A program made the position numbers and the translations under genes. A DNA stretch of 62,297 bases from Streptomyces sclerotialus (GTDB lineage Bacteria; Actinomycetota; Actinomycetes; Streptomycetales; Streptomycetaceae), in NCBI GenBank assembly GCA_000719105.1, contig JODX01000028.1, forward strand, positions 1 to 62,297, read 5' to 3'. Positions 45,533 to 62,297 of the stretch are shown piece by piece; position 1 is the first letter of the stretch, and each line of letters begins with the position of its first letter. Under the pieces are notes generated by a model that did no database searches, had not been told where the DNA came from, and saw nothing but the letters and a program-made list of their open reading frames with translations.

Positions 45533-45994
45533 GTGTCCCAGGCGGTCAGGAATACGTATGCACAGGTCACGGGGGAGCTCTATGCCGAGGTCCGGACGTT
45601 CTACGCCTGGCAGATGCGCCGGGTCGACGCGCTGGACATCGAGGGTTTCGCCGCCACGTTCACCGAGGACGGGGAGGTCGTGCACGCGGGGGGCGCCGTG
45701 CAGCGCGGGCGCGCGGAGATGCTCGCCGGGATGCGGGCCGCGCTGCCCCGCTACCGCGACATCGCCGTACGGCACTGGTTCGACCACGTCCTGATCGAGC
45801 CCGACCCGGCCGACGAGGACACCCTGCACGTGTCGTACTACTCGCTCGTCACCCGTTCCGACCGCGAGGGCAACGTCGCCTTCGAGCCGACCTTCACCGT
45901 GGAGGACGAGCTGGTGCGGCGCGGGGGCGTGCTCTTCACCCGGCGGCGGGTCATCCACCGGGACCAGCCGGTGGAGCCGCCGGTACAGGCGTGA
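45533..45994 (+). CDS. NTF2/SnoaL-like fold protein
   Basis: A 153-residue protein starting at GTG 45533. The FYAWQMRRVDALDIEGFAATFTEDGEVVHAGG start and the C-terminal FTRRRVIHRD strand fit the nuclear-transport-factor-2 superfamily, close to the small-subunit/SnoaL-like proteins common in aromatic polyketide clusters, where members act as cyclases, hydroxylases or binding proteins. The role here is not clear. It faces the MBL gene across a strong terminator. Confidence 0.8.
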   Translation: MSQAVRNTYAQVTGELYAEVRTFYAWQMRRVDALDIEGFAATFTEDGEVVHAGGAVQRGRAEMLAGMRAALPRYRDIAVRHWFDHVLIEPDPADEDTLHVSYYSLVTRSDREGNVAFEPTFTVEDELVRRGGVLFTRRRVIHRDQPVEPPVQA

Positions 45995-46005
45995 GGAAAC
46001 ACGGA

Positions 46006-46041
46006 TGCGCCGGACGGGTCGGTTCGACCCCGTCCGGCGCA
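46006..46041. terminator. Bidirectional terminator between the NTF2-like and MBL genes
   Basis: TGCGCCGGACGGG (46006-46018) pairs perfectly with CCCGTCCGGCGCA (46029-46041), 13 bp with a 10-base loop. Confidence 0.85.
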
Positions 46042-46058
46042 CGCTGTCGTACGGGCCG

Positions 46059-59970: not shown

Positions 59971-59995
59971 CAGGTGCATGGGCGCGAACTCCCGC

Positions 59996-61000
59996 TCAGA
60001 CGCCCGCCGCCGCAAGACGGCTCGCGACCCCGGCCCCGACGCGTCGCGCATCCCACCAACTGGTGTGGGACCGGTACCAGTCGACGACTTCGGCGAGCCC
60101 CCGTTCGAAAGGGACGGCCGGGGCGTATCCCAGCTCCTCACGGATCTTGGTGTCGTCCAGGGCGTAACGCAGGTCGTGTCCCTTGCGGTCGGGCACCATA
60201 CGCACCAGAGCGGGATCGGCGCCGCACAGCCGCACCAGGTCATCGGTCATCTGGCGGTTGGTGCGTTCGTTGCCCTGCCCGATGTTGTAGACCTCACCGG
60301 CCCGGCCACGGGTGAGCACGAGCTGCACGGCCCGGCAGTGGTCGGCGACGTGCAGCCACTCCCGTACGTTTCCGCCGTCCCCGTACAGCGGGACCGTCTC
60401 GCCACGCAGCAGGCGGGTGACGAAACGTGGGATCAGTTTCTCGGGGTGCTGGTAGGGGCCGTAGTTGTTGGAGCAGCGGGTGATGGACACGTCGAAGCCG
60501 TGACTGCGCCAATAGGCCCGCGCGACAAGGTCGGCGGCCGCCTTGGATGCGGCGTAGGGCGAGTTGGGCAGCAACGGCCACGCCTCGGTCCAGGAGCCCT
60601 CGGCGATCGACCCGTACACCTCGTCGGTGGAGATGTGCACCATGCGCTGCACTCCGGAGGCGACGCAGGCGTCGAGCAGAGTCTGGGTGCCGCCGACGTT
60701 CGTACGCACGAACGTGCTCGCGTCGGTCAGGGACCGGTCGACATGGGACTCAGCGGCGAAGTGCACCACCGCGTCGTGGCCGGGGAGCAGGTCGAACAGC
60801 AGGGCGCGATCGCAGACGTCGCCTTCGACGAAGTGCAGCCGGGGGTGGTCCGCCGGCAGGTTCGACCGGGTCCCCGCGTACGTGAGCTTGTCGAGGACCG
60901 TCACGTCGGCCTGCTCATATCCGGGATACCCGCCGCTCAGGAGCGTACGGACGTAATGCGAACCGATGAATCCGGCGCCGCCCGTCACGAAGAGCCTCAT
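59996..61000 (-). CDS. rmlB: dTDP-glucose 4,6-dehydratase
   Basis: A 334-residue extended SDR. TGGAGFIGS (residues 6-14), HFAAESHVDRS, STDEVYGS (catalytic Asp/Glu) and YAASKAA are diagnostic. It makes dTDP-4-keto-6-deoxyglucose, the branch point for most deoxysugars. ATG 61000 overlaps the metF stop (ATGA); a longer reading to 61087 is less likely. Being the only sugar gene here, it points to a glycosylated product with further sugar genes outside, or to a shared housekeeping pool. Confidence 0.94.
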   Translation of the reverse strand: MRLFVTGGAGFIGSHYVRTLLSGGYPGYEQADVTVLDKLTYAGTRSNLPADHPRLHFVEGDVCDRALLFDLLPGHDAVVHFAAESHVDRSLTDASTFVRTNVGGTQTLLDACVASGVQRMVHISTDEVYGSIAEGSWTEAWPLLPNSPYAASKAAADLVARAYWRSHGFDVSITRCSNNYGPYQHPEKLIPRFVTRLLRGETVPLYGDGGNVREWLHVADHCRAVQLVLTRGRAGEVYNIGQGNERTNRQMTDDLVRLCGADPALVRMVPDRKGHDLRYALDDTKIREELGYAPAVPFERGLAEVVDWYRSHTSWWDARRVGAGVASRLAAAGV

Positions 61001-61953
61001 ACGGGGCTCCCTTCCGGGAGTGGTGGGTTCGTCATGACTGGTCCTCCTCGGCGTGCGGGCGGAGCGACTGGCGACGACGGTGCGCACCCGGTCAGATTCC
61101 GGTGGATGTCGAGTGCGGCGGTGGACTTGTTGAGGGTGATGTAGTGCAGACCGGGGGCGCCCTCGGTGAGGAGACGGTCGGCCATGGCGGTGGCGTGCTC
61201 GACGCCGATGCGGTGACCTGCGGCGGGGTCGTCACCGACCGCTTCGAGGCGGTGGGCGAGTTCTTCGGGGAAGGCGGCGTGGGAGAGTTCGGCGAAGCGG
61301 CTGATCTGGCGTACGTCGGTGGCGGGCATGATCTCGGGAATGATCGGGGTGTCGCAGCCCGCGGCCGCCACCCTGTCGCGCAGGCGCAGATAGTCCTCGA
61401 CGTCGAAGAACATCTGGGTGATGGCGTAGTCGGCACCGGCTCTGCATTTGGCGACGAAGTGTTTGACGTCGCTGTCCCAGTCGGGTGAGCGGGGGTGCAT
61501 CTCGGGGAAGGCCGCGACGCCGATGGTGAACGCGCCCAGTTCCCGGACGAGTTCGACGAGTTCGTGGGCGTGGGTGAAACCGTCCGGATGGGGGGTCCAG
61601 GGGCCGTTGGGGTCGCCTGGCGGGTCGCCGCGCAGTGCGAGCACGTCGTGGACGCCCGCGTCGGCGTACCGGCCGATGATGCGGCGTAGTTCGGCGACCG
61701 AGTGGCCGACGGCGGTCAGGTGTGCCACGGGGCACAGGGTGGTGTCGGTGGCGATGCGTTGGGTGACGTCGACGGTGCGGTCGCGGGAGGAGCCGCCGGC
61801 TCCGTAGGTGACGGACACGAAGGTGGGAGCGAGGGGTTCGATGCGGCGGATCGCGTTCCACAGGGTGCGCTCGCCGTTGTCGGTCCTGGGCGGGAAGAAC
61901 TCGAAGGAGAAGGTGGGGGTACGGTCGGCCAGCGCCTGGCGCAGGGTGCTCAT
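60997..61953 (-). CDS. metF: Methylenetetrahydrofolate reductase
   Basis: A 318-residue MetF. TPTFSFEFFPPRT, PHLTAVGHS-like AHLTAVGHSVAEL, DVLALRGDPPGDP and ITQMFFDVEDYL are characteristic TIM-barrel motifs. It makes 5-methyl-tetrahydrofolate for methionine synthesis. Its start overlaps the metH stop (ATGA) and its stop overlaps the rmlB start, so all three are translated from one coupled unit. The C-terminal 25 residues are Pro/Gly-rich. Confidence 0.95.
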   Translation of the reverse strand: MSTLRQALADRTPTFSFEFFPPRTDNGERTLWNAIRRIEPLAPTFVSVTYGAGGSSRDRTVDVTQRIATDTTLCPVAHLTAVGHSVAELRRIIGRYADAGVHDVLALRGDPPGDPNGPWTPHPDGFTHAHELVELVRELGAFTIGVAAFPEMHPRSPDWDSDVKHFVAKCRAGADYAITQMFFDVEDYLRLRDRVAAAGCDTPIIPEIMPATDVRQISRFAELSHAAFPEELAHRLEAVGDDPAAGHRIGVEHATAMADRLLTEGAPGLHYITLNKSTAALDIHRNLTGCAPSSPVAPPARRGGPVMTNPPLPEGSPV

Positions 61954-62297
61954 GAGCGGCCTCCGGCGTTGAAGTAGCCGGCCTGTGGGTGGTGGATGAC
62001 GATGGCGTCGGTGGACTGTTCGGGGTGGAGCTGGAACTCCTCGGACAGGACCACACCGATCCGCTCGGGCCGCAGCAGGTGCGCGATCTTGGCGCGGTCC
62101 TCCAGATCCGGGCAGGCCGGATAGCCCAGTGAATAGCGGCAGCCCTGGTACTCGGTGCGGAACATGCCCTCCATCGCGGCCGGGTCGCTTCCTGCGATGC
62201 CGAGTTCGGCGCGGACGCGTGCGTGCCAGTACTCGGCGAGCGCCTCGGCCAGCTGCACGGACAGGCCGTGCAGTTCGAGGTAGTCGCGGTAGGCGTT
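61950..62297 (-). CDS. metH: Cobalamin-dependent methionine synthase, C-terminal fragment (cut by window end)
   Basis: The last 115 codons of metH, open to the window edge. NAYRDYLELHGLSVQLAEA, AEYWHARVRAELGI, YQGCRYSLGYPACPDLED and SEEFQLHPEQSTDAIVIHHP are the AdoMet-activation domain of MetH. It remethylates homocysteine using 5-methyl-tetrahydrofolate. The 5' part lies beyond 62,297. It overlaps metF by four bases. Confidence 0.93.
   Translation of the reverse strand, partial: NAYRDYLELHGLSVQLAEALAEYWHARVRAELGIAGSDPAAMEGMFRTEYQGCRYSLGYPACPDLEDRAKIAHLLRPERIGVVLSEEFQLHPEQSTDAIVIHHPQAGYFNAGGRS

Follow-up and report, generated by a model that had tools for sequence, protein, structure and literature searches.

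The trioxacarcin (TXN) family of aromatic polyketides is distinguished by spiro-epoxide products that alkylate guanine at N7. Biosynthetic clusters described for this family include that of trioxacarcin (txn, GenBank KP410250) in Streptomyces bottropensis NRRL 12051 and that of LL-D49194 (lld, GenBank MK501817) in S. vinaceusdrappus NRRL 15735. The starter of trioxacarcin is described as a 2-methylbutyryl unit, condensed with acetyl-CoA and loaded by a ketosynthase III (KSIII), and its pyrone ring is closed by TxnO9, a CalC-like protein (PMC9570651); glycosylases of the AlkZ type carry either an HxQ motif, as in TxnU4 and LldU1, or a QxQ motif, as in TxnU2 and LldU5 (PMC8934636), and clusters for DNA-damaging agents are enriched in AlkZ-like genes (PMC9040887). 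Here we analyse a stretch of 62,297 nucleotides from Streptomyces sclerotialus, referred to as the window, which is the whole of one contig (JODX01000028.1, here C28) and whose right end, 62297, is the contig end. Seventeen genes of one biosynthetic cluster span 45533-62297, and with high confidence we regard them as the tailoring, sugar-entry and methyl-supply half of a single type II polyketide cluster of about 70 kb belonging to the trioxacarcin/LL-D49194 family, the other half of which lies on contig C23 of the same genome (51,991-101,388). The cluster most likely directs the synthesis of a DNA-alkylating anthraquinone-gamma-pyrone of that family.

The gene at 48637-49122 encodes an AHSA1/SRPBCC protein whose best solved relative is TxnO9 (5z4f, 257.4 bits, against 53.1 bits for CalC), 109 of 152 aligned residues being identical (72%). 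Its best match among functionally named proteins, at 71% identity, is a 'Pyrone synthase' whose source is readable only as 'Streptomyces vi...' and which presumably belongs to the LL-D49194 producer. Relatives at E<=1e-40 were found in 23 of the 392 Streptomyces genomes searched. With TxnO9 only about 72% of residues are shared, and with the presumed lld protein 71%, a value that speaks against both the same strain and the same cluster; the present cluster is therefore neither txn nor lld but a divergent relative. The first-pass annotation of this stretch, made from the letters alone, could not match the gene combination to a known product; this no longer holds, since the TxnO9-like cyclase, the KSIII and citramalate-synthase starter genes and the AlkZ glycosylases point to the trioxacarcin/LL-D49194 family.

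That annotation had also proposed the tailoring half of an aromatic polyketide cluster, with the minimal polyketide synthase (PKS) outside the window, and both proposals are supported by the PKS half on C23, of which 42 genes were compared with relatives. The minimal PKS (C23 53924-56686) comprises a ketosynthase alpha (KS-alpha) with the catalytic cysteine (VSTGCTSG), a KS-beta with glutamine instead and an acyl carrier protein (ACP) with a DSL motif. A KSIII-type gene (72151-73203) and a starter enzyme of the citramalate-synthase type (73235-74848; TIGR00977, 540.7 bits, cut-off 450) are present, as are three AlkZ-type DNA glycosylase genes (PF06224), of which one has HAQ at the aligned position and the other two have QAQ. 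The deoxysugar genes of C23 include an rmlA-like gene, a 2,3-dehydratase, epimerases, a C-methyltransferase and an EryCIII-like glycosyltransferase, rmlB itself being in the window. Further C23 genes were assigned through Pfam and NCBIfam to acyltransferases, acyl-CoA carboxylase subunits, a SARP regulator, a phosphopantetheinyl transferase, cyclases, an AMP ligase, a CoA transferase, an epoxide hydrolase and methyltransferases, and two P450s and an MFS pump by similarity to their window counterparts. Several traits of the TXN clusters are present as genes across the two contigs, namely a type II minimal PKS, a TxnO9-type cyclase, KSIII with a starter enzyme, HxQ and QxQ glycosylases, and deoxysugar genes with a glycosyltransferase. 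The likeness to txn extends to the cyclase (72%), to KSIII with a starter enzyme that condenses with acetyl-CoA and to AlkZ-type glycosylases of both motif kinds (PMC8934636, PMC9570651), whereas three AlkZ-like genes are found here and two in txn; SAHH, metH and MTHFR (see below) are central in the present cluster, txn having been compared without its full gene list.

A ketosynthase family search found ketosynthase pairs on two contigs, C23 and C18, and the window genes might serve the C18 pair (165280-167366), or a PKS lost from an assembly that is only 85% complete, as part of a different aromatic cluster. We consider this very unlikely, since in the relatives described below the counterparts of both gene sets, window and C23 PKS, stand together in a single run, and the C18 stretch examined holds no match to a window gene beyond regulators at 1e-10. 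The ActIII-type ketoreductase (KR) of the window is the only match in its own genome at E<=1e-60, none being found on C23 or on C18. The C18 pair was accordingly rejected as partner in favour of C23 on the strength of the linkage in relatives, and the C18 ketosynthase region is a different, uncharacterised aromatic cluster.

In the single-contig genome G345, by gene content the closest of the relatives examined, 16 of the 17 window genes and 38 of the 42 C23 genes are found in one run. The two sets are bridged, on one strand and in this order, by SAHH-metK-adoK-metH-MTHFR-rmlB (S-adenosylhomocysteine hydrolase, SAHH; methylenetetrahydrofolate reductase, MTHFR), the window-type genes adjoining one end of this bridge and the C23-type genes its other end. 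Likewise, G261, also a single contig, holds all 17 window genes and 28 of the 42 C23 genes, its S-adenosylmethionine (SAM) cycle genes lying elsewhere within the cluster; the cassette of both genomes includes metK and a kinase. Across the 12 tabulated relatives, at a looser threshold than that used for the boundary below, between 7 and 17 of the 17 window genes and between 8 and 38 of the 42 C23 genes have matches; as the part read was limited to 77-80 kb in several of these genomes, genes that seem to be missing, such as the PKS half in G127, may simply lie beyond the edge. SAM-cycle genes within the cluster are a minority feature, found in two of the 12 (G345 and G261). Judged by identity to C23, G244 comes closest among the relatives examined (97% for KS-alpha, 93% for the pyrone cyclase); it has few of the sugar and methyltransferase genes. 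The pyrone synthase of G200 is 90% identical to the 'Streptomyces vi...' protein, and this genome holds 28 of 42 C23 genes and 15 of 17 window genes; within the 80 kb read it gave no match to a SAM-cycle gene or to the YcaO and peptide genes described further on. Of 80 loci, 64 (L080-L143) were compared and 16 with 36-40% identity (L144-L159) left out; at least five window genes are found at 29 of the 64, both KR and pyrone cyclase at 23, and six of those 29 loci include, within the 20 kb considered, two or more genes of the PKS half as well. Two genomes outside the 12-genome table may be mentioned separately: G442 has 11 window genes, the PKS half not being seen in the stretch read, and G024 has a KR beside a PKS and no pyrone-cyclase match.

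Gene calling with a codon model gave 58 genes in the window, of which numbers 42-58 fall in 45533-62297. At a threshold of at least 50% identity and 70% coverage, 5 to 17 of these 17 genes are matched in each of the 12 relatives, while none of genes 1-41 is found in the homologous stretch of 11 relatives, G345 among them, and two of the 41 in the twelfth. As genes 42-58 are kept with the cluster and genes 1-41 are not, 45533 marks a genuine left boundary of the cluster. Its boundary gene, SnoaL-like, has 55-93% identical counterparts in 10 of the 12 relatives.

The right end of the window and the end of C23 are both broken inside SAM-cycle genes. The break falls at model position 169 of SAHH for C23 and at model position 1072 of metH for the window. 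The start of contig C10 carries the metH piece of the window (99 nt identical, then divergence) and the start of C3 carries the SAHH piece of C23 (exactly 99 nt identical, then divergence), and such identical ends of 99 nt are what assemblers leave at a repeat; the last 99 nt of C13, searched in the same genome, match C13 only. The other end of metH lies at the end of C13 and the C-terminal end of an SAHH on C46; C13/C10 and C46 appear from their neighbours, read by eye, to carry the housekeeping copies. The break between C23 and C28 is best explained by assembly having stopped at genes that the genome holds a second time for housekeeping. Given their orientations, the C23 SAHH and the window genes metH, MTHFR and rmlB would make up one co-directional operon.

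MTHFR and metH are families of primary metabolism, MTHFR being present in 31 of 31 genomes searched, and one could read rmlB, MTHFR and metH as ordinary chromosome at which the cluster ends. This has a slighter chance still of being right than the C18 assignment: the genome has another MTHFR on C21 (64% identical) and another metH end on C10, the same three genes lie inside the cluster in G345 and G261 with 79-87% identity, the three overlap by 4 nt each, and SAM-cycle genes also occur in the mithramycin and furaquinocin clusters (PMC7247220, PMC9686526). In fact, the window MTHFR is 77-82% identical to cassette-type copies, as against 64% to the housekeeping copy on C21, and in a 10-row tree it groups with the cassette copies, apart from the housekeeping one. 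SAHH, metH and MTHFR are second copies belonging to the cluster, and a cluster end at MTHFR/metH was rejected on these second copies and on their position within the cluster in G345 and G261. Only primary metabolism beyond the edge, together with a genome devoid of PKS, had been named in the first-pass annotation as the outcome that would overturn it; instead, a PKS is present and the edge genes are cluster-type second copies.

SAM-cycle genes in an aromatic polyketide cluster are not new in principle, since they are known from mithramycin, whose cluster has mtmA (MTHFR) and mtmH (SAHH) beside mtmD/mtmE (PMC7247220), and from furaquinocin, whose cluster holds a complete SAM recycling set (PMC9686526), even though the polyketide frameworks of both differ from the present one. 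The locus adds a case in which methyl-supply genes are built into such a cluster. Duplicated SAM-cycle genes can also split clusters of this kind in draft assemblies, and mining contig by contig would then report two unrelated halves. As an observation apart, SAM-cycle cassettes of metH, MTHFR and SAHH, some with metK and a kinase, were seen in other actinomycetes (L160, L161, L163, L164), with no type II PKS alongside in the stretches read. Likewise, the C18 region (162-169 kb; L058/L059) has, neighbouring its ketosynthase pair, an adenosine-kinase-like gene with 51% identity to the cassette kinase.

The nature of the product deserves a further comparison, as the best solved relative of the window KR is 3sju, which we take to be the hedamycin ketoreductase. 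Hedamycin and kidamycin are pluramycins, which share the anthraquinone-gamma-pyrone core predicted here and have, like the present cluster, an ActIII-type KR, and the hedamycin cluster also has an AlkZ-like gene (PMC9040887), so that a pluramycin rather than a trioxacarcin type of cluster might be envisaged. We regard this as unlikely, the most serious of the alternatives weighed here though it is. The starter of hedamycin and kidamycin is made by two type I PKS modules (PMC10646177, PMC9570651), whereas the ketosynthase search of C23 returned a type II pair only and no type I PKS, large PKS genes being on other contigs and unlinked. In addition, KSIII and citramalate-synthase genes are present on C23, and G013, whose run does include type I modules, ranks with the more distantly related genomes (16 of 42 C23 genes, 10 of 17 window genes). 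A pluramycin cluster was rejected as no type I starter modules were found on C23, and this result, together with the KSIII and citramalate-synthase genes and the motifs of the glycosylases, favours the trioxacarcin/LL-D49194 family. In G013 itself (C1, 4.92-4.93 Mb; L071), large type I PKS genes of 706 and 2043 aa, noted by eye, stand beside type II genes, in what is possibly a pluramycin-type cluster.

Several points weigh against joining the two contigs into one cluster of the trioxacarcin/LL-D49194 family. The C23-C28 join is deduced and unsequenced in this genome, whose incompleteness was mentioned above; family searches did not find the interiors of either metH copy or of either SAHH copy in the assembly, and inspection of contigs C47-C92 apart from C88-C90, 43 of 46 in all, did not reveal one that bridges the gap. 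A family search found one metK and no second, and the two adenosine-kinase-like genes of the genome lie on C21 and C18, not beside the cluster; the bridge of this strain either differs from that of G345 or is partly lost, and a second metK and a kinase could lie in the unassembled gap. Four C23 genes are without counterpart in G345, the support of the MTHFR grouping (93/94) is under the star mark of the tool, and one C23 glycosylase matches AlkZ in the PDB weakly (32.9 bits), its motif falling outside the aligned part. Finally, the likeness to txn and lld was read from single proteins and published descriptions.

Based on protein families, the following pathway is proposed for the joined cluster. 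The citramalate-synthase-type enzyme would make a branched acyl starter, which KSIII would load, and KS-alpha, KS-beta and ACP would build the chain, which the window KR and the C23 cyclases may then fold to an anthraquinone, the TxnO9-like protein closing the putative gamma-pyrone. Oxidation and adjustment of the core, which probably yield a reactive epoxide, would be the work of the two-part flavin monooxygenase, of the P450s supplied by the ferredoxin chain and of the SnoaL, SDR and MDR proteins. Deoxysugars would be started by rmlB and finished and attached by C23 enzymes, while O- and C-methyltransferases, supplied by the SAM-cycle genes, may decorate the product. The junction of the two contigs is conceived as a SAM-regeneration operon reading SAHH (C23 end), gap, metH, MTHFR and rmlB (window end). 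Export would fall to the MFS pump, and the three AlkZ-type glycosylases are candidates for the repair of the producer's own DNA. Tailoring genes that stood orphaned in the window would in this way become part of a near-complete candidate cluster for a DNA-alkylating antibiotic of antitumour type.

The genes of the window half are collected in Table 1 with those of a peptide cassette on C23. All the tailoring genes named in the first-pass annotation were confirmed by family assignment (SnoaL/NTF2-like protein, flavin reductase, KR, oxygenase, two P450s, ferredoxin and its reductase, exporter, MDR reductase and rmlB), and six genes that it left unnamed were added, namely the metallo-beta-lactamase-fold (MBL) protein, the TxnO9-like AHSA1/SRPBCC protein, the TAP-like hydrolase, a second SDR, MTHFR and the C-terminus of metH. 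Motif reading indicates intact catalytic motifs in the KR, both P450s, the MBL-fold protein and the ferredoxin.

Table 1. Genes of the cluster half in the window (contig C28) and of the peptide cassette with its adjacent regulator (contig C23)
Feature	Contig	Position	Strand	Matches and remarks
SnoaL_4/NTF2-like cyclase or hydroxylase, left boundary gene	C28	45533..45994	+	PF13577 68.8 bits; nearest solved chain Aln2 6p7l 105.5 bits
MBL-fold enzyme, pathway role unassigned	C28	46059..46976	-	PF00753 95.9 bits; HFHGDH motif; 4-nt overlap with next gene
Flavin reductase (ActVB-like), partner of flavin monooxygenase	C28	46973..47533	-	PF01613 118.5 bits
ActIII-type polyketide KR	C28	47620..48405	-	Best solved relatives keto reductase 3sju 386.9 bits, ActIII 1x7g 326.7 bits; YSASK motif
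Gamma-pyrone cyclase, TxnO9 relative, AHSA1/SRPBCC	C28	48637..49122	+	TxnO9 5z4f 257.4 bits
Two-component flavin-dependent monooxygenase, oxygenase part (ActVA-ORF5/HsaA-like)	C28	49153..50277	+	PF08028; HsaA 2rfq 120.1 bits; XiaF 5lvu 112.7 bits
Cytochrome P450 (a)	C28	50402..51598	+	PF00067; heme-Cys motif FGHGLHYCLG
Ferredoxin reductase	C28	51723..52985	-	PF07992 and PF14759
2Fe-2S ferredoxin	C28	52985..53308	-	PF00111; C-x5-C-x2-C
DHA2-family MFS exporter	C28	53547..55007	+	EmrB model TIGR00711 231.8 bits, cut-off 230.2
TAP-like alpha/beta hydrolase	C28	55124..56551	+	PF00561, PF08386
Cytochrome P450 (b), related to compactin hydroxylase and P450-SU1 chains	C28	56628..57860	-	PF00067; 2z36 345 bits; heme-Cys motif FGHGVHHCIG
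SDR oxidoreductase (second SDR)	C28	57910..58674	-	PF13561 186.9 bits
MDR-family enoyl/quinone reductase	C28	58898..59878	+	PF00107, PF16884; curcumin reductase family 209.9 bits, below cut-off 440
rmlB, dTDP-glucose 4,6-dehydratase, first deoxysugar step	C28	59996..61000	-	TIGR01181 406.7 bits, cut-off 365.1; 4-nt overlap with MTHFR
Second, cluster-type MTHFR (SAM regeneration)	C28	60997..61953	-	TIGR00676 335.1 bits, cut-off 293.7
Second methionine synthase (metH), C-terminal 115 residues, cut by contig end	C28	61950..62297	-	TIGR02082 positions 1072-1181; 4-nt overlap with MTHFR
SARP activator	C23	58707-59519		Divergent from peptide cassette
Putative TOMM-type (thiazole/oxazole-modified microcin) precursor peptide, 101 aa	C23	59812-60117		TIGR04351 44.4 bits, below cut-off 65
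Fused YcaO cyclodehydratase	C23	60150-62390		Over cut-offs of TIGR03604 and TIGR03882
HisKA_3 histidine kinase	C23	62625-63683
LuxR-type response regulator-like gene	C23	63743-64357		By eye; 57-80% identical genes elsewhere

The peptide cassette (C23 59812-64357, corresponding to L057:4813-9358) stands beside the SARP gene of the PKS half, and its peptide gene is found in 8 and its YcaO gene in 9 of the 12 relatives. Matches to TIGR04351 occur in 85 of 392 Streptomyces genomes, many of them weak and over the cut-off in four. At 20 further places, read mainly from the strongest matches and hence not a random sample, YcaO (one partial) and the kinase are present in all 20, the SARP gene in 19 and the regulator in 17, and at 19 places a peptide gene precedes YcaO, while a KS-alpha lies within the 20-kb stretch at only two. 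The leaders of the peptides are conserved and their cores variable, often with cysteine and tryptophan. A literature search for YcaO with a type II polyketide and a precursor peptide, or for YcaO with SARP, returned nothing on such a cassette in the available texts, subscription journals being mostly outside its coverage.

Peptide modification, export, sensing and regulation are the functions predicted for this arrangement, and the peptide may be a signal, a co-product or a relic. We tentatively suggest, as a possibility rather than as the expected outcome, that the cluster carries its own ribosomal-peptide signalling, in which the kinase would sense the modified peptide as an autoinducer and the SARP, once activated by it, would turn on the polyketide genes, and that the same cassette controls other Streptomyces clusters. 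If the cassette does signal, it would represent a new control layer for Streptomyces antibiotics, and it is a more novel lead than the polyketide cluster itself.

Two features lie in the window just to the left of the cluster. A HisKA_3 histidine kinase and a LuxR-type regulator (39936-41778) are encoded just outside it and had no counterpart in the corresponding stretches of the 12 relatives, and a second MDR-type reductase (43448-44386), 1 kb from the boundary, is likewise not conserved with the cluster in these relatives.

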